From assembly GCF_025028335.1 (NCBI RefSeq), contig NZ_JAFEUW010000001.1, forward strand, positions 62,001-126,000: a stretch of DNA of 64,000 bases, written 5' to 3'. The stretch's first letter is position 1, and each line of letters opens with the position of its first letter. The translations under genes were made by a program, and so were the position numbers. Under the pieces are notes generated by a model. The model searched no databases. It was not told the DNA's origin and saw nothing but the letters and a program-made list of their open reading frames with translations. Shown here one piece after another: positions 33,231 to 51,500 of the stretch. This DNA comes from Brachybacterium sillae. Lineage in GTDB: Bacteria > Actinomycetota > Actinomycetes > Actinomycetales > Dermabacteraceae.

Positions 33231-33331
33231 CACGCGACGGTGTCACCGGAGCGCCGCGGGAGACCCTGCACGGCGCCCCGCGGAGGTGCGGCGAGCACCG
33301 GGCCCGTGTTCGCTCCCAGGAAGAGGTGCCC

Positions 33332-33706
33332 ATGCGTCCGCTGTCCTCCCGCTTCTCGGCGCTCCCCGCGGATCAGGGGCTCTACCGCTCCGCCGATGAG
33401 CACGACGCCTGCGGCGTGGCGATGGTCGCCACCACCCGCGGCACCCCCGGGCACGACATCGTCTCCCTCGCGATCACGGCGCTGGAGAACCTGGACCATC
33501 GCGGTGCCGTCGGAGCCGAGGAGAACACCGGTGACGGCGCCGGCATCCTGCTGCAGCTCCCGGATCGTTTCCTGCGGGCCGTGATCGACGCCGAGCTGCC
33601 CGCCCCCGGCGAGTACGCCGCCGGCCTGGCTTTCCTCCCGCAGGACGACGAGGAGCGGGAGAGCACCCTGCGGAGGATCGAGACGATCGCCGTCGAGGAG
33701 GGCCTG
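33332..33706 (+). pseudogene. gltB: gltB 5' fragment (glutamate synthase large subunit, truncated)
   Basis: The first 125 codons of NADPH-glutamate synthase alpha subunit. The glutaminase nucleophile Cys27 is in HDACGVAM after a short propeptide, followed by ALENLDHRGAVGAEENTGDGAGILLQLPD. The sequence stops at codon 125, exactly where the IS3 terminal repeat begins, and the frame runs 18 codons into the IS before a stop at 33,760. The ATG at 33332 fits AGGAAGAGG; a GTG two codons earlier is possible. The remainder of the glutaminase domain and the central domain are missing from the window, and the 3' part resumes at 49,086. Confidence 0.95.
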
Positions 33707-41895: not shown

Positions 41896-42182
41896 GGGTG
41901 AGCAGGTCCTCCCAGACGCCGTCGCTCGCCCACCGCCGGAAGTTCTTGTAGATCGTGTTCCAGCTCCCGAACCGATCGGGCAGGTCTCGCCACGCCGATC
42001 CCGTGCGGAACCGCCACGCGGTCGCCTCGACCACCGTGCGCCGATCCACCGGAGGACGGCCCCGTGTCCTCACCGGCGGGAACACGTCCCGGATCAGCTC
42101 CCAGACCTCGTCCGTGATGACATCTCGAGACACGCCTCAAGGATCACCCGAAGGCCCCGAACCAGCATTTAGCAACACGGCC
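41522..42182 (-). mobile_element. IS5-family (IS427 group) element, truncated
   Basis: An IS5-like left end on the minus strand (terminal GCCGTGTTGCTAAATGCTGG reading from about 42182) with orfA intact and orfB cut at about 41521. The other terminal repeat is missing. Confidence 0.8.
41744..42133 (-). CDS. IS5-family orfA
   Basis: A 129-residue DUF4096-like OrfA: MSRDVITDEVWELIRDVFPP, RRTVVEATAWRFRTGSAWRD, and the first catalytic D near VVSVDSSIARVHQHGA. In this group OrfB is normally reached by a frameshift near the orfA end; here that route leads into the chimeric frame. Confidence 0.85.
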   Translation of the reverse strand: MSRDVITDEVWELIRDVFPPVRTRGRPPVDRRTVVEATAWRFRTGSAWRDLPDRFGSWNTIYKNFRRWASDGVWEDLLTHVQKRASLQGEIDWVVSVDSSIARVHQHGATLPRVTGGSIERQEVGAGAS

Positions 42183-42249
42183 TAAGCCGCGTCGGAGGTG
42201 GTGAGGGGGCCGCCGGCGGCCGTGTGGGATGGTGGCCCTGGCCCGGGGC

Positions 42250-42636
42250 TCAGCCGTGCGGGGTGCCCAGTGCTTTCTCGTCATAGGCCTGACGAGCTTC
42301 AAGGACGTCATCGAAGTGCTCGGCCGCCCAATCGACCAGCGCCCCAAGTGGATGCTCCAAGGTCGAGCCGAGTGGCGTGAGGCCGTAGTCGACGTGGCGG
42401 GGCACTGTGCCGTGATCGATCCGCTCGACGATCCCGTCGCGCTCCAGGTCGCGGAGAGTGTCCACCAGAACCTTCTTGCTGATGCCGTCGACGGCCGCCT
42501 GGAGCTCGCCGAAGCGCAGACGCCGATGCTGGAGCGCGATGACGATCAATGCGGTCCACTTGTTGGCGATCCGCGCGAGAGAGGTGCGCGACGGGCAGGT
42601 CGCGAGCAGGGGATTCCATGAACGTTCGGTGACCAT
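42250..42636 (-). CDS. HxlR-family transcriptional regulator
   Basis: A 128-residue winged-helix protein with the family pattern: Cys in LLATCPSRTSLARIANKWTA, LRFGELQAAVDGISKKVLVDTLRDLERDGIVER, and the C-terminal LTPLGSTLEHPLGALVDWAAEHFD. The ATG at 42634-42636 has AAGGAG 9 nt upstream; the longer open frame upstream is chance. It is divergent from a SnoaL-like gene and probably regulates it through the palindrome at 42653-42674. The redox- or aldehyde-sensing Cys is retained. Confidence 0.9.
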   Translation of the reverse strand: MVTERSWNPLLATCPSRTSLARIANKWTALIVIALQHRRLRFGELQAAVDGISKKVLVDTLRDLERDGIVERIDHGTVPRHVDYGLTPLGSTLEHPLGALVDWAAEHFDDVLEARQAYDEKALGTPHG

Positions 42637-42652
42637 CAGGTGAACTCCTTCC

Positions 42653-42674
42653 GTGGTTACGTTGAAGTCACCAC
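42653..42674. promoter_or_regulatory. 22-bp palindrome in the HxlR/SnoaL divergent region
   Basis: GTGGTTAC-GTTGAA-GTCACCAC: 8-bp arms matching at 7 of 8 positions, 17 nt upstream of the hxlR-type gene start. Its size and place fit the operator of a dimeric HxlR regulator. Confidence 0.5.
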
Positions 42675-42738
42675 AACAGCATCGGCCACCCTCAGAGGGC
42701 GGTGATCCTGCTGCGGATCGAACGAAGGAGAACTGACC

Positions 42739-43140
42739 ATGACTGCCACACCCCCCGTTGAGACCGTCGAAACCTACTTCACCCATCTGGCCCAGGGCAA
42801 CGTCGAGCAGGCCATGGCCGTGCTCGACCCGGACGTCGCGTGGCACCAGCCTGGCGACAACCGCTTCTCGGGCGTGCACCGCGGCCCGGATGCCATCCGT
42901 GCCCTGATCGGCGGCATGATGGAGGCCACCGGCGGGACATTCGCGGTGGCCCCGACCGGCCCCCTCATGGCGAACGAGGACGTGGTGGCCGCCCCGGTGC
43001 GCTTCACGGGTCACCGAGATGGGCGAGAGCTGGACCAGCCCGGGGTGGATCTTCTCACTGTCCGGGACGGCCGGATCGTCGAGGTCCGGCTCTTCTCCTC
43101 AGACGGCCCCGCCGAGGACCAGTTCTGGGGGAAGGCGTAA
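42739..43140 (+). CDS. SnoaL/NTF2-like protein
   Basis: A 133-residue NTF2-fold protein: ETYFTHLAQGNVEQAMAVLDPDVAWHQPGDNRFSGVHRGPDAIRAL and DLLTVRDGRIVEVRLFSSD. The family includes polyketide cyclases, isomerases and limonene-epoxide-hydrolase-like enzymes; the reaction here is unknown. GAAGGAG precedes the ATG by 9 nt. It is divergent from the HxlR gene and followed by a strong terminator, so it is a single-gene unit. Confidence 0.85.
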   Translation: MTATPPVETVETYFTHLAQGNVEQAMAVLDPDVAWHQPGDNRFSGVHRGPDAIRALIGGMMEATGGTFAVAPTGPLMANEDVVAAPVRFTGHRDGRELDQPGVDLLTVRDGRIVEVRLFSSDGPAEDQFWGKA

Positions 43141-43177
43141 GACGACGGCCAGGTTGCTCAGCAACCTGGCCGTCGTC
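43141..43177 (+). terminator. 17-bp stem terminator after the SnoaL-like gene
   Basis: A perfect 17-bp stem (arm core ACGACGGCCAGGTTGC) with a TCA loop, beginning 1 nt after the stop. No U-run, only GTT follows. Confidence 0.8.
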
Positions 43178-43227
43178 GTTGCGGCATGTGCGCGACGTAC
43201 CGATCAGCGACCATCAGGAAGGTTGAC

Positions 43228-43467
43228 ATGAACTCCAAGCAGTACGCCCCAGAGCATCGTGAAGTCCTCATCGTAGGCGCCGGCTTCAGCGGCCTGGCCA
43301 ATCTCCACCTGCTGCGCCGTGCAGGGATCGACGCCGCGATTGTCGAAGCAAGTGACGACGTCGGTGGCACTTGGCATGCGAACCGATACCCGGGGGTCCG
43401 AACAGACAGCGAATCGCACTATTACTGCTTGTCCTTTGCCCAGGAAGTCACCGTGAATCGGCTGTAA
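43228..43467 (+). pseudogene. Baeyer-Villiger-type flavin monooxygenase, 3'-truncated
   Basis: Only the N-terminus of an FAD/NADPH monooxygenase of normally 500-600 residues. The FAD-binding GAGFSG is at residues 17-22, followed by GGTWHANRYPGVRTDSESHYY, typical of cyclohexanone/phenylacetone-monooxygenase relatives. After SFAQEV the family sequence ends where IS110 DNA begins, and an accidental tail TVNRL stops at 43467. AGGAAGG precedes the ATG. Confidence 0.85.
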
Positions 43468-43752
43468 GTCTCTGAAGTGGCTGGCCTGGGGTCGGCTGGC
43501 AGGGTGGGTGCTGGTGCTCCGTCTGGTCGTGACTCTTGAATCGCCTGGCCTCCCGCTTCGGCGGGGTGCCTTTCCCAGGATCTGTCCGGCCGGGTGGGTG
43601 CCGGCGCCGACCCTGCCCACTCCGATGGCTTGATCAGAAGCTTGCCCGACCGTTCACGGCGGTCGTGGCCCATTACAGGCCTGCCTCGAAGTGACCATTC
43701 CCGGGTCGACGCCAGCAGTGACGTCAACCCAGTGGAGAGGATCACGGTCACC
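43468..43752 (+). ncRNA. Putative bridge-RNA region of the IS110 element
   Basis: A 285-nt segment without a gene between the left end and the transposase. IS110-group elements encode their bridge RNA, with target- and donor-binding loops, in this position. GC-rich self-complementary stretches are visible (CTCCCGCTTCGGCGGGG; ACCGTTCACGGCGGTCG). The RNA itself is inferred, not shown. Confidence 0.4.
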
Positions 43753-44820
43753 ATGACCATCGTCGCAAACACGTTCGCGTATGTCATCGGCGCGGACACC
43801 CATTCCAGAACACACACTCTCGCCGTGCTCGACGCGCGCACTGGCGCCAGAGTGGACACTCGGACCTTCCCGACGACGCCGGCGGGATTATCACGCGCGG
43901 TCGCGTGGATCGCTCGGCGCACCAGCGGGCTGGCCGATGTGCTCGTAACGATCGAGGGCGTCGGCTCGTATGGCGCCCGGCTCGCGAGAGCATGCCAGGA
44001 CGCCGGCTACCGGGTCGTGGAGTCGTTCCCGACAGCGGCACGTGAACGTCGCGGACGAGGCAAGAGCGACGAGATCGACGCGGAACTGATCGCCCGCTCC
44101 GTGCTCGGCGTCGATGCCGACAACCTCCGTGATCCGCGTCAGGACGCGGGAGTCCGCGCGGCGCTGCGGGTGCTGATCGGCGCCCGCGACCTCATCAACC
44201 TCGAACGCACCAGGTCGATCAACGCCTTGACCGCGCTGCTTCGAACGGTCGACCTCGGCATCGACGCCCGCGCCTCGCTCACCAAGAAGCAGCTCGCGGC
44301 GATGGAGTCCTGGCGCACGCGACAGGAGGACCTCGCGACCGCGACAGCCCGCCGGGAAGCGATCCGGCTGGCCCGACGGGTTGCCGTCTGCGATCAGGAC
44401 CTCGCTGCTAACCGTGACGAGATCACCGCGCTGGTCGCCGCCAGCGACGCCGCAATCCTGCTCGACGAGCCCGGGATCGGCGCGATCAACGCGGCCGTGA
44501 TCATCGCCGCCTGGTCACACCCCGGCCGGGTCCGCTCCGAAGCAGCGTTCGCCGTGCTCGCCGGCGTCAGTCCCGTGCCCGCCTCGAGCGGAAACACCAC
44601 CCGTCATCGCCTCAACCGAGGAGGCGACAGGCGTCTGAACAGAGCCTTATCGTCGATCGCGCTGACCCGAATGTCGCACCACCCGCCGACCCGCGCCTAC
44701 GTCGAACGCCGACGAGCCGAAGGACGCACCACCAAGGAAATCCGCCGCTCACTCAAGCGATACATAGCCCGCCAGCTCTACCGCCGCCTCAGCGAGCAGA
44801 GCGGACTTGACAACACATAG
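43753..44820 (+). CDS. IS110-family DEDD transposase/recombinase
   Basis: A 355-residue enzyme. The N-terminal RuvC-like DEDD domain starts VIGADTHSRTHTLAVLDARTG (first D), with VTIEGVGSYGARLAR (E) and GRGKSDEIDAELIAR (DxxD). The C-terminal Tnp domain has LLDEPGIGAINAAVIIAAW and the catalytic-Ser segment PVPASSGNTTRHRLNRGGDRRLN-type (here shown as SSGNTTRHRLNRGG). It looks complete. ATG 43753 is chosen from family length. Confidence 0.92.
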   Translation: MTIVANTFAYVIGADTHSRTHTLAVLDARTGARVDTRTFPTTPAGLSRAVAWIARRTSGLADVLVTIEGVGSYGARLARACQDAGYRVVESFPTAARERRGRGKSDEIDAELIARSVLGVDADNLRDPRQDAGVRAALRVLIGARDLINLERTRSINALTALLRTVDLGIDARASLTKKQLAAMESWRTRQEDLATATARREAIRLARRVAVCDQDLAANRDEITALVAASDAAILLDEPGIGAINAAVIIAAWSHPGRVRSEAAFAVLAGVSPVPASSGNTTRHRLNRGGDRRLNRALSSIALTRMSHHPPTRAYVERRRAEGRTTKEIRRSLKRYIARQLYRRLSEQSGLDNT

Positions 44821-44866
44821 AAGCATCCTGGGTTTCGTTCCGTTCTTGAAGCAAGGATGGAACACG

Positions 44867-44928
44867 ATGAACCAGAAGTACTCTCCCGAGATGCGCGAGC
44901 GCGCGCTGCGGATGCTCGATGACCCGAG
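44867..44928 (+). pseudogene. IS3-family orfA remnant (second type)
   Basis: The first 20 codons of a different IS3 OrfA: MNQKYSPEMRERALRMLDDP. The sequence then runs into the end of the IS1634-type-2 element. GGATGGAACACG precedes the ATG. Confidence 0.65.
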
Positions 44929-46473
44929 TTTTATCAATTTAGTGAGCACTGCGTGACGGTGGCCGGTGGATGCGGTCGAGCGCGTCGCGGAGCTCGTCGG
45001 GGATAGGGTCGGCGGCGGTGATGTTGTGGTCGCCGGCGCGGATCGTGACGGTCTTGTAGCGCCGGGCGGTGGTGACGAACTTCTTCAGTGACCAGCCGGT
45101 GAGGTGCTCGAGGCGGCGGGCGACGGCGAGGGCGGCGAAGACGATGCTCAGGTGGGCCTCGATGGAGTCCTGCAGGCGGTGGTAGATCGGCCGGGCGGCG
45201 AGGTCGTGCTTGGACATCCGGAAGGACTTCTCGATCTGCCAGAGGCGGTGGTAGGCGCCGATGACGAACTCCGCCGACGCCTGCTCGGGCAACAGGTTGG
45301 TCAGGTAGCCCTTGATCCCGGCCAGGGCCCGGGCCTTGGCCTCTAACTCACGGTTGACGGCCCGTTCCTCGCCGGTGACGGTCAGGAACCGGTTGCGCTT
45401 GACCGGGGCCTTGCCGGCGGCGGCCTGTTCGGCCTTGGCGACCTGCTGATCGATCCCCCGCAACGTCCGCCGCGCCCGGGCGGCCCGGTACTGGTAGTAG
45501 ATTCGCCCCTCACGGCGGTTGCCGGCCGGGCCGGTGAAGGTCTTGGCGGTGAAGATCTGCCCGTCCTCCGGCCCCTGCCCGGGGTGCTCGGCCAGCCACT
45601 TCTCGATCACGTACGGGACCTCGGCGATCCGCGCGCCGAGGATGTAGGACAACCCGGCGGCCTCGATCGCGTCCCGGTTGTCGTGGCTGAGCATCCCGGC
45701 ATCGGCCACCACGGTGAGGTTGTAGGTGGCCTTGAACGCCTCGATCACCGGCAGCATCGTCTTCGTCTCGGCCTTGTTGCCCTCAAAGGCGTTGACCATC
45801 AACGGAAACCCGGCGGCATCGGTCAGCAACCCGATGGTGATCTGCGGATCGATCCGCCGCTCCTTGGAGTACCCCGGCTCCCGGAAACCGTCACCCTCGT
45901 CGGCCTCGAAATACAACGTCGAGACGTCGTAGAGCACCAACGCCGCTGGCCCCAGCTCTGCCGTCGCGGCCAGGGCGGCCGCCAACGCCTGACGGAAGGC
46001 CGGCTTGGCGTAGCGCGGCAGGCGCCGGTTAACGGTCGGGTAGGACACCGGGGCCAGGCCGGTCTCCTCGATCACCCGCAGCGAGTCCAGCTTGCTCGTC
46101 GGCTCCACCAGGCGGGCCAGCACCAGGTGAAAGAAGACCTCATCTCCCTGCGCCGCGGCCTGAAGGCCCAGATCGACGTAGACACGCTCGATCGCACCGA
46201 TCAGGTGCTCCATCCGGGTGGTGGTAATCGGCAACGGCCCACCCGAGCCGGGCCTGCCGAGCCCGAGATCGAGCTCGTCTTGCCCCGCTGCCAGCCGCTG
46301 CCGCGCCGCGGCCTTGAGGGCTTCGATCTCGGCATCGGAGTGCGCTGAGCCGATGTGCTCGATGTCCTTCGACCCGCGCCGCGTAGAGTGAACGATCTGC
46401 ACCGCCCGCGCCCCAGAGGCGGTCTTCACCGTGCGGATGTAGGCCACCGCCGCACTCTACAACCCCCGGTTAA
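44929..46473 (-). mobile_element. IS1634-family (IS1549-like) element, type 2
   Basis: A second, distinct IS1634-family element in minus orientation. Its left limit is near TTTTATCAATTT before the transposase stop. Its right end seems cut by IS1380 at 46474, since only 26 nt separate the transposase start from the IS1380 repeat (the type 1 element has about 100 nt there). Confidence 0.75.
44939..46447 (-). CDS. IS1634-family transposase, type 2
   Basis: A complete 502-residue DDE transposase: MAYIRTVKTASGARAVQIVH start, LVLYDVSTLYFEADEGDGF, GYSKERRIDPQITIGLLTD, VVADAGMLSHDNRD and YHRLWQIEKSFRMSKHDLAA. It is homologous but clearly different from the type 1 transposase at 39,472. Start GTG at 46447. 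Confidence 0.9.
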   Translation of the reverse strand: MAYIRTVKTASGARAVQIVHSTRRGSKDIEHIGSAHSDAEIEALKAAARQRLAAGQDELDLGLGRPGSGGPLPITTTRMEHLIGAIERVYVDLGLQAAAQGDEVFFHLVLARLVEPTSKLDSLRVIEETGLAPVSYPTVNRRLPRYAKPAFRQALAAALAATAELGPAALVLYDVSTLYFEADEGDGFREPGYSKERRIDPQITIGLLTDAAGFPLMVNAFEGNKAETKTMLPVIEAFKATYNLTVVADAGMLSHDNRDAIEAAGLSYILGARIAEVPYVIEKWLAEHPGQGPEDGQIFTAKTFTGPAGNRREGRIYYQYRAARARRTLRGIDQQVAKAEQAAAGKAPVKRNRFLTVTGEERAVNRELEAKARALAGIKGYLTNLLPEQASAEFVIGAYHRLWQIEKSFRMSKHDLAARPIYHRLQDSIEAHLSIVFAALAVARRLEHLTGWSLKKFVTTARRYKTVTIRAGDHNITAADPIPDELRDALDRIHRPPSRSAH

Positions 46474-49085: not shown

Positions 49086-51500
49086 GGCATCTCCACGGTG
49101 TCCTCCTACCGCGACAGCCAGATCTTCGAGGCCGTCGGTCTCGGCCAGGAGCTCGTCGACCGGTACTTCCCCGGCACCACCAGTCGGCTGGGAGGCATCG
49201 GCCTCGACGTCATCGCCGCGGAGGTCGCCGCCCGGCACCACCGCGCCTACCCGCCGGAGGGGCAGGCCCTCGCCCACCGGCGCCTGGAGGTCGGCGGGGA
49301 GTACCAGTGGCGCCGCGAGGGTGAACCCCACCTGTTCACGCCGGAGACGGTGTTCCGTCTGCAGCACTCCACCCGCACCCGCCAGTACGAGGAGTTCCGC
49401 CGGTACACCGACATGGTCGATGACCAGTCGGAGCGGCTCATGACCCTGCGCGGCCTGTTCCGACTGCGCACCGAGGACGTCGAACCGGTGCCGCTGGAGG
49501 AGGTGGAGCCGGTCTCCGCCATCGTCAGGCGTTTCATGACCGGCGCCATGAGCTACGGCTCCATCTCGCAGGAGGCCCACGAGACCCTCGCGATCGCCAT
49601 GAACCGCCTGGGCGGGATGTCGAACTCCGGAGAGGGCGGTGAGGACCCGGAGCGTCTGCATGACCCGGAGCGCTCCAGCGCCATCAAGCAGATCGCCTCC
49701 GGCCGCTTCGGCGTGACCAGCGAATACCTCACCTTCGCCCGTGACATCCAGATCAAGATGGCGCAGGGGGCGAAACCGGGGGAGGGCGGGCAGCTGCCGC
49801 CGCAGAAGGTGTACCCGTGGATCGCCCGCACCCGGCACTCCACCCCCGGGATCGGTCTGATCTCCCCGCCGCCGCACCACGACATCTACTCCATCGAGGA
49901 TCTGGCCCAGCTGATCCACGATGCGAAGTCCGCCAACCCGCAGGCCCGCGTCCACGTGAAGCTGGTGTCCCGCTTCGGGGTCGGCACCGTCGCGACAGGT
50001 GTGTCGAAGGCCCATGCCGATGTGGTGCTGATCTCCGGACATGACGGCGGCACCGGTGCCAGCCCGCTGAACTCCCTCAAGCACGCCGGCACCCCGTGGG
50101 AGCTGGGCCTGGCCGAGGCCCAGCAGACGCTTCTGCTGAACGGTCTGCGCGACCGCATCACGGTGCAGGTCGACGGGCAGATGAAGACCGGCCGTGACGT
50201 CATCATCGCCGCCCTCCTGGGCGCCGAGGAATACGGTTTCGCGACCGCCCCGCTGGTGGTGTCCGGCTGCATCATGATGCGCGTGTGCCACCTGGACACC
50301 TGCCCGGTCGGCGTCGCCACCCAGAACCCGGAGCTGCGGTCCCGGTTCACCGGCAGCCCCGACGTCGTCGTCACCTTCTTCGAGTTCATCGCCGAGCAGG
50401 TGCGCGAACATCTGGCGCAGCTGGGCCTGCGCTCCCTGGATGAGGCCATCGGTCGGATCGACCTGCTCGATGTCGACGAGGCGCGCCGCCACTACAAGCA
50501 GGAGGGTCTCGACCTCCGCCCGGTGCTGGCCCGCCCCCAGATCATGGAGGGTGACCACGTGCGCCGCCGGCGCGCGCAGGAGCACGGTCTGGAGCACGCG
50601 GCGGACGTCCCGTGGATCGAACAGGCACGGCCCGCCCTCGAGGAGGGGCGGCCGGTGGTGATCCGCGACCGGGTGCGCAACACCCAGCGGACCGTCGGCA
50701 CCCTGCTCGGCCACCAAGTCACCGTCCGTCACCGCGGGGAGGGACTGCCCGATGACACCATCCGGGTGGAGCTCGAGGGCACCGGAGGGCAGTCCTTCGG
50801 GGCCTTCCTGCCGCGCGGTGTGACGCTCGAGCTGCGCGGCGACGTCAACGACTACACCGCCAAGGGACTCTCCGGCGGGATCGTCGCCGTCGGACCCACC
50901 CGCCCCGGTGCCGGCGCTCCGGACGCCCCCGCGAGCACCGCCGGGGGATCATCGCAGGATGCGGCGCCCGCCCCCGCCGTGATCGCGGGGAACACCTGCG
51001 CCTACGGCGCCACCAGCGGGGAGCTGTACCTCGCAGGCAGCGCGGGGGAACGCTTCGGGGTGCGCAACTCCGGCGCCACACTGGTGGTCGAGGGCATCGG
51101 CGACCACGGCGCGGAGTACATGACCGGCGGCGCCGTCGTGGTGCTGGGGCCGACCGGGCGCAACCTCGGTGCCGGGATGAGCGGCGGCACCCTGTTCGTG
51201 CTGGACCTCGACCGGGAGCGGCTGAACCCGGCCGACGCGGCGACCTTCGAGATCGGCCCGGTCACCCCGGAGCACCGCGGGTTCGTGCGCGCGGTGCTCT
51301 CCGAGCACGTGCGCCGTACCGGCTCCGAGAGGGCCCGGGCGCTGCTGGCCGATGAGGACGCGCTGTTCGCGCGGATGACGGAGATCGCCCCGCGGGCCTT
51401 CCTGCGGGTGATGCGCATCCGGGAGGACGCCGTCGAGCGGGGCGTCGACCCGGACGCCCCGGAGGTGTGGAACGAGATCCTGGAGGCTTCCCATGGCTGA
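49086..51500 (+). pseudogene. gltB: gltB 3' fragment (FMN/synthase and GXGXG domains)
   Basis: The remaining 804 codons of glutamate synthase alpha subunit, from [18 protein letters not shown] to the end. The FMN-binding glutamate-synthase domain ([45 protein letters not shown]) and the 3Fe-4S cysteines ([16 protein letters not shown]) are complete, and the C-terminal GXGXG beta-helix domain follows. The first usable start is GTG 49098 with no good ribosome-binding site. It overlaps gltD by 8 nt. It might still be expressed from the IS3 side, but it lacks the glutaminase part. Confidence 0.93.

Follow-up and report, generated by a model that had tools for sequence, protein, structure and literature searches.

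We have found an intact insertion sequence (IS) of the IS110 group that, with a probability of about 95%, encodes a guide RNA whose target loop fits the tips of IS3-family elements and whose donor loop fits the element's own ends. It lies in a 64,000-nt window of the Brachybacterium sillae genome (contig NZ_JAFEUW010000001.1, positions 62,001 to 126,000), and this whole stretch is what we mean by the window; unless otherwise indicated, coordinates refer to it. The reading is drawn from the ends of the element, an empty target site in relatives, a second copy, the catalytic residues of the recombinase, a covarying RNA, and the agreement of guides with both targets and donor ends. The features are collected in Table 1.

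Table 1. Features of the IS110-group element and its flanks (window coordinates)
Feature	Position	Strand	Evidence
5′ fragment of FAD/NAD-binding monooxygenase-like gene	43186..43453	+	NAD_binding_8; break at 43453 inferred from IS3 tip
Left half of target: outer 8 bp of IS3-family terminal inverted repeat (TGAATCGG)	43454..43461	+	Uninterrupted IS3 copies read TGAATCGGCCTGGGTTTCG; homologues with the same kind of left flank
Left end (LE), non-coding	43462..43752	+	Begins CTGTAAG; start common to both own copies and homologues
Bridge RNA candidate, bounds from covariance model	43522..43725	+	156.2 bits, E 1.6e-33; fold z -5.74 for 43470-43690
Predicted left target guide (TGAATCGC plus core C)	43537..43545	+	7/8 with own target TGAATCGG; single best placement in LE
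Predicted right target guide (CCCAGG, complementary to target CCTGGG)	43574..43579	+	Run of 6 including core C
Predicted left donor guide (AGAAGCTT against right-end AGAAGCAT)	43636..43643	+	7/8 by eye here; tested clade-wide
Predicted right donor guide (CATTACAG; TTACAG complementary to LE start CTGTAA)	43671..43678	+	Pairing kept despite changed letters in L050, L055 and L075
IS110-family DEDD recombinase, 355 aa	43753..44820	+	Pfam, NCBIfam, catalytic residues
TTGACA, candidate -35 box across RE-LE circle junction	44807..44812	+	TTGAC near right end in 76/76
Right end after stop codon	44821..44826	+	Second own copy, homologues, empty IS3 site
Right half of target and start of interrupted IS3	44827..44938	+	94 bp from 44829 100% identical to L114

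The element is complete and occupies 43462-44826. It has the long non-coding LE (291 nt) and the short right end (6 nt after the stop codon) that characterize the IS110 group. Its exact limits were fixed by means of the second copy in the same genome, the homologues and the empty IS3 site, and at the junctions the window reads TGAATCGG/CTGTAAG on the left (43461/43462) and AGAAGCAT/CCTGGGTTTCG on the right (44826/44827). An initial annotation of this DNA had given the span as 43452-44830, which these junctions replace, and had described 285 nt of structured-looking non-coding DNA ahead of a recombinase that looked complete. The latter two observations hold up well. The non-coding segment measures 291 nt (43462-43752), its portion 43470-43690 folds alone to -126 kcal/mol (z = -5.74, with 0/200 shuffles as low), and the recombinase is a complete ORF. 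Its product matches PF01548 (2.1e-20) and PF02371 (1.6e-19), and scores 178.3 bits, above the cut-off of 140, with the NCBIfam model NF033542 'IS110 family RNA-guided transposase'. As expected for the group, a DEDD RuvC-like domain is combined with a C-terminal domain that hosts a conserved serine. The residues D15, E68, D106, D109 and S279 are the same letters in all 76 aligned rows, which include near-identical copies and the element's own protein more than once. The corresponding residues of IS621 (D11, E60, D102, D105 and S241) are reported to be essential (PMC11208158).

The genome carries only two full copies of the element. The second (L040, at G000:C1:1659388-1660754) shows 1 difference in 1367 bp from the window copy and also sits in an IS3 end, the host IS3 being bordered by a 3-bp target duplication (GGA/TCC). 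Its left flank, TCCTGAAT, lacks 3 bp relative to the expected register and, judged by eye, matches the guide at 1/8 positions in register. With 1/8 we rejected an in-register insertion for this copy, which fits only given that 3 bp were lost at the junction. A scan of genome contigs gave 4 loci, including one near relative (85%) that ends at a contig edge. We also note a stretch (L003, G000:C1:2622348-2622615) that shares 72% identity with 268 bp of the recombinase gene and is probably an old IS110 remnant.

These copies bear on the question of whether the element is a member of the IS110 group that has become an inactive relic, with RNA and protein that look intact through recent descent and no mobility left in this host. 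The presence of two full copies only, the altered left junction of the second one and the further fragment (72% identical over 268 bp) would agree with such a history. Against it, the two copies differ at 1 base of 1367, and all five catalytic residues have been kept, as have the donor guides and the -35 box; we consider it an unlikely account.

We collected 80 homologous loci, the own copies included. A simple pattern delimited both ends in 68 of these, and 28 representatives were aligned; the 12 loci that lacked an end by this first pattern are L050, L055, L061, L065, L067, L069, L075, L092, L101, L103, L104 and L105. Conservation, fold and covariation all point to a structured candidate RNA with two internal loops in the LE, as in other members of the IS110 group. 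In the alignment of the 28 homologues four intramolecular helices have 94.6% of their cells paired, compared with 82.0 in shuffled controls and at most 48.5 in slid ones, and both sides change in 18 of the 29 pairs. A covariance model was built from 26 homologues, with the own sequence left out and L029 and L068 excluded. When the window was searched with this model, which scores sequence as well as structure, 43522-43725 was found at 156.2 bits (E 1.6e-33), the runner-up reaching 7.5 bits (E 1.6). The model also recovers both own copies, as well as loci that had no part in it (L050, L055, L061, L065, L068, L075, L101, L104 and L105); on L003, L004, L067, L069, L092 and L103 it gave nothing convincing. 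A search of Rfam with E-values up to 1 returned no match for 42000-46000, although Rfam may hold no bridge-RNA family.

The layout of the LE suggests where the guides are. GTGACTC is followed by a stretch identical or almost identical to the left target, and GANNTGTCC is preceded by one that is complementary to the beginning of the right target. For a sample of 28 of the 68 elements the left target guide agrees with its own target at 6.61 of 8 positions, compared with 2.51 for shuffled pairings, and the right target guide at 4.93 of 7, compared with 2.07; neither value was reached in 20,000 shuffles. These shuffles ignore the kinship of the elements, except in a version restricted to one element per target group (n=17), where the left guide scores 6.35 vs 2.37 and the right guide 4.82 vs 2.02, again with 0/20,000 shuffles reaching the observed values. 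When each LE was scanned along its length, the best match to the left target fell at the guide site, give or take one base, in 28/28 elements and exactly there in 23, the guide being one base off the common register in 5/28; two elements have an equal match elsewhere as well. The right target has its best or joint best match at the guide site in 17/28 elements and elsewhere in 11/28, and the pairing run, core C included, is only 3 in 7/28 elements and 2 in one. Inspection of six elements outside the test (L050, L055, L061, L065, L075 and L105) showed that their left guides fit their left flanks. Across the homologues the target loop is thus predicted to be complementary to both target strands, while the second own copy fails in register.

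The donor guides give a similar picture with a smaller contrast. The AGAAG stretch, the putative left donor guide, agrees with the right end at 6.86 of 8 positions (5.94 when shuffled), and the YACAG stretch, the putative right donor guide, agrees with the LE start at 6.39 of 8 (5.90 when shuffled), in both cases for 28 elements with 0/20,000 shuffles as high; the contrasts are small because the element ends are conserved. In L050, L055 and L075 the LE starts with CTGCAAG and the matching TTGCAG is present, which is a compensatory change. The donor loop is accordingly modelled as complementary to the joined ends. The initial annotation had proposed both a bridge RNA in the 5′ segment and guides deducible from the flanks. 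The first proposal is supported by the covariance-model search (E 1.6e-33) and the covarying helices, and the second by the agreement between guides and cognate flanks in the 28 elements, which no shuffle out of 20,000 equalled.

A reading of the LE as only a structured leader or protein-binding site, with a resemblance to the target that stems from common descent or from a captured target copy, is very improbable. The left ends do share descent, and conserved structure alone is no proof of a guide. But the guide letters track the target letters over 17 target groups, from a nearly fixed site and for both target strands, and the adjoining LE stretches are conserved while the guides vary. The LE is better read as the source of a guide RNA, and this RNA appears to be aimed at the tip of an IS3.

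Uninterrupted IS3 tips in other genomes read TGAATCGG-CCTGGGTTTCG, which is exactly the two window flanks joined. It follows that the IS110 element entered the outer end of an IS3 with no bases lost or gained, and that it was the IS3, rather than the IS110 element, that cut off the monooxygenase fragment. To locate such tips, we searched 396 genomes of the order for the 110 bp of the right flank; 56 gave some match, many of them short. The best match besides the own one is L114, in another genome, with 100% identity over 94 bp; this is an uninterrupted IS3 with orfA and orfB matches and the tip TGAATCGGCCTGGGTTTCG. Among the 13 loci that were read this tip also occurs in L118, L121 and L123, and L115-L117 read TGAATCGCCCTGGG. 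In the window the IS3 is itself cut by another IS, and the 24-aa orfA start at the right flank, taken alone, has no Pfam match. Within the genus the IS3-tip pattern is found at 61 places in 24/38 genomes, 39 of which equal TGAATCGC; a reversed control of the pattern had no matches in the same 38 genomes.

The monooxygenase gene had earlier been named as the target. The ORF of the fragment, which runs from 43186 to about 43464-43467, does match NAD_binding_8 of Pfam (1.5e-11), but the IS3-family terminal inverted repeat is found on both sides of the element, and the fragment ends before 43454-43461. That this gene is the target, with the IS3 adjoining by chance, can be dismissed: the fragment ORF extends to 43467, yet the joined flanks equal the uninterrupted IS3 tip of other genomes, and other members of the same target group are likewise found at IS3 ends.

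The only base common to target and donor is a C. In the 68 elements, copies included, the target base before this C is A in 28, T in 18, C in 12 and G in 10, and the base after it is C in 38, A in 17, G in 12 and T in 1. The constancy of the C in the LE is not independent evidence, because this letter is required by the pattern that defines the 68; the right ends continue with TC in 76/76, and these two bases were unforced. We found no CT core dinucleotide shared by target and donor like that of IS621, where the core is described as CT with a nearly invariant T (PMC11208158). A TTGAC motif is located near the right end in 76/76 elements with the right-end motif, with 13-17 bases between hexamer and end; in the window, TTGACA lies inside the gene, 5 bases ahead of the stop codon. 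This placement fits a promoter that would be formed at the circle junction. A consensus -10 box was not seen, and a promoter scan, which covered the linear element only, found none.

We propose the following mechanism, in which transcription, RNA binding, the circle and recombination are taken by analogy from IS621 and ISEc21. The element would circularise, and the joining of its right and left ends would bring the TTGACA -35 box, which lies in the right part, to the LE, so that the bridge RNA could be transcribed from there. The two sides of the target loop, 5′ TGAATCGCC and 3′ CCCAGG, would pair with both strands of the IS3 outer tip, here TGAATCGG-C-CTGGGT. The donor loop (AGAAGCTT and TTACAG) would pair with the junction of the element's two ends, AGAAGCAT-C-TGTAA, and the recombinase would then exchange strands around the common C.

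Relatives (E up to 1e-60) occur in 11/47 genomes of the family, 37/396 of the order and 12/394 of the class, counts that include the own genome each time and come from overlapping samples. In plasmid records the best relatives are from Mycolicibacterium, Streptomyces, Rhodococcus and Arthrobacter-like hosts. Fourteen elements are of the IS3-tip kind (13/68 by left flank, and the shortened second own copy). An IS3 transposase match is found on the right flank of 11/14 and on the left flank of none, so insertion into IS3 ends happens in a single orientation. IS3 repeats accompany the window copy and L037, for which this flank test gave no IS3 match; L045 has an IS3-tip left flank, yet lacks an IS3 on its right and does not lie in one. 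Other relatives, whose guides differ, are found in ISL3, rve-type and IS3 transposase genes, near an IS5-like gene, or in palindromic repeats (L056 and others), the site of L056 being close to an ABC-transporter gene.

A match to one of eight transposase queries lies within 1000 bp of 33/68 elements, a raw count in which some flanks are shorter and nested ISs are included. Together with the sites described above this suggests that the clade prefers mobile elements as targets. The preference is suggested and not proved, because 7/10 flank ORFs had no domain match. Tentatively, we picture an actinobacterial IS110 clade that often preys on mobile elements and has switched its guides among IS3 tips, the transposase genes of IS3, rve-type and ISL3 elements, and the end of another IS110. 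It might thereby gain multi-copy harmless sites, and it might cap, and perhaps immobilise, an IS3 by swapping its outer 8 bp for the right-end octamer of the IS110 element, AGAAGCAT. We think it somewhat doubtful that this picture holds as a whole.

Two further groups of relatives are worth describing. L052 and L053 are inserted 9 bp downstream of another IS110 recombinase ORF, and their left guide resembles the end of that element (TTGACAAAGA). In two genomes of one genus, L056, L057 and L080-L087 occupy two parts of apparently the same palindromic repeat, ACCTCGCG-CGAGGT and AATTACTA-CCTGACGG, which these elements apparently divide between them.

RNA-guided IS110 elements were described in 2024 (PMC11208160, PMC11187229), and the targeting of mobile elements is already known in the IS110 family, from ISEc21 and from IS4321/IS5075. 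The solved structures that are matched by sequence are those of IS621 and ISCro4 (8wt6 and 9t56; phmmer 1.2e-11 and 1.5e-10). These systems share with our element the DEDD RuvC-like and Tnp domains, the latter with a serine, and an RNA in a long LE with two loops that each carry a left and a right guide (PMC11208160, PMC11208158), but they are distant in sequence from the window recombinase. In IS621 target and donor have CT in common, here only C; and IS621 is cited, in the title of a reference, for REP elements, whereas the target here is an IS3 tip. ISEc21, which uses a seekRNA, is alike in its upstream non-coding guide RNA, its circle-junction promoter and a target within IS3-family elements, but it is aimed at codons of the IS3 transposase and the window element at the IS3 terminal inverted repeat (PMC11187229). 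The terminal inverted repeat of another transposable element is also the target of IS5075 and IS4321, for which an accidental target elsewhere (ureC) is reported; these belong to the IS1111 group and their hosts are Tn21-like transposons, not IS3 (PMC8269217). The Tn21-type repeats that they target have been called a 'safe harbour' (PMC8269217). Members of the IS1111 group are described as having their RNA region downstream and carrying subterminal inverted repeats (PMC11187229); downstream of our gene there is no such guide RNA region, since only 6 nt separate the stop codon from the right end.

The element thus combines known traits, namely an IS110-group architecture, an IS3 host and a terminal-repeat target. 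In the titles and abstract openings of the open-access papers surveyed we found no IS110-group element that is aimed at IS3 terminal repeats. It is a clear case of one IS inserted, apparently under RNA guidance, into the ends of another. Among its relatives, guide loops and targets have changed together many times on one RNA scaffold, which makes them a natural series. Furthermore, a clade with one common base (C) in target and donor, in place of CT, is useful for understanding or choosing bridge recombinases.

IS3 tips vary in ways that deserve separate mention. In the own genome, IS3 copies L005-L010 have nearly identical bodies, but their outermost 8-10 bp vary (TGAATCGC, TGAAGCAT, CCAACGCC and forms of other lengths); those with differing tips include L006 and L007, which have matching 3-bp target duplications. 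Elsewhere, L070, L071, L072, L073 and L074 have IS3-like tips (TGAAGCATCCCGGGT) that resemble the IS110 right end AGAAGCAT beside the same repeat. We also considered whether a lost IS110 right end (AGAAGCAT) had left as scars the IS3 tips that read TGAAGCATCC, which are found at 5 places in 3/38 genomes, and dropped the idea. The genus also has the tips TGAAGCGT, TGAAGCGC and TGAATCAT, so capture is not separable from resemblance; it is possible that IS3 ends captured IS110 letters, an event that would look the same as natural tip variation.

The element also lies in a region rich in ISs. The large-subunit gene of glutamate synthase is broken in the window into 33326-33706 and 49086-50600. Its left part matches GATase_2 over positions 1-101 of 420, and the right part holds the last 19 positions of the central domain followed by the full Glu_synthase domain. 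The roughly 15 kb between the two parts lack the middle of the gene and are dense in ISs, with inverted IS3-type ends (TGTTGCGCCCCGGGTCTGATGCAG).
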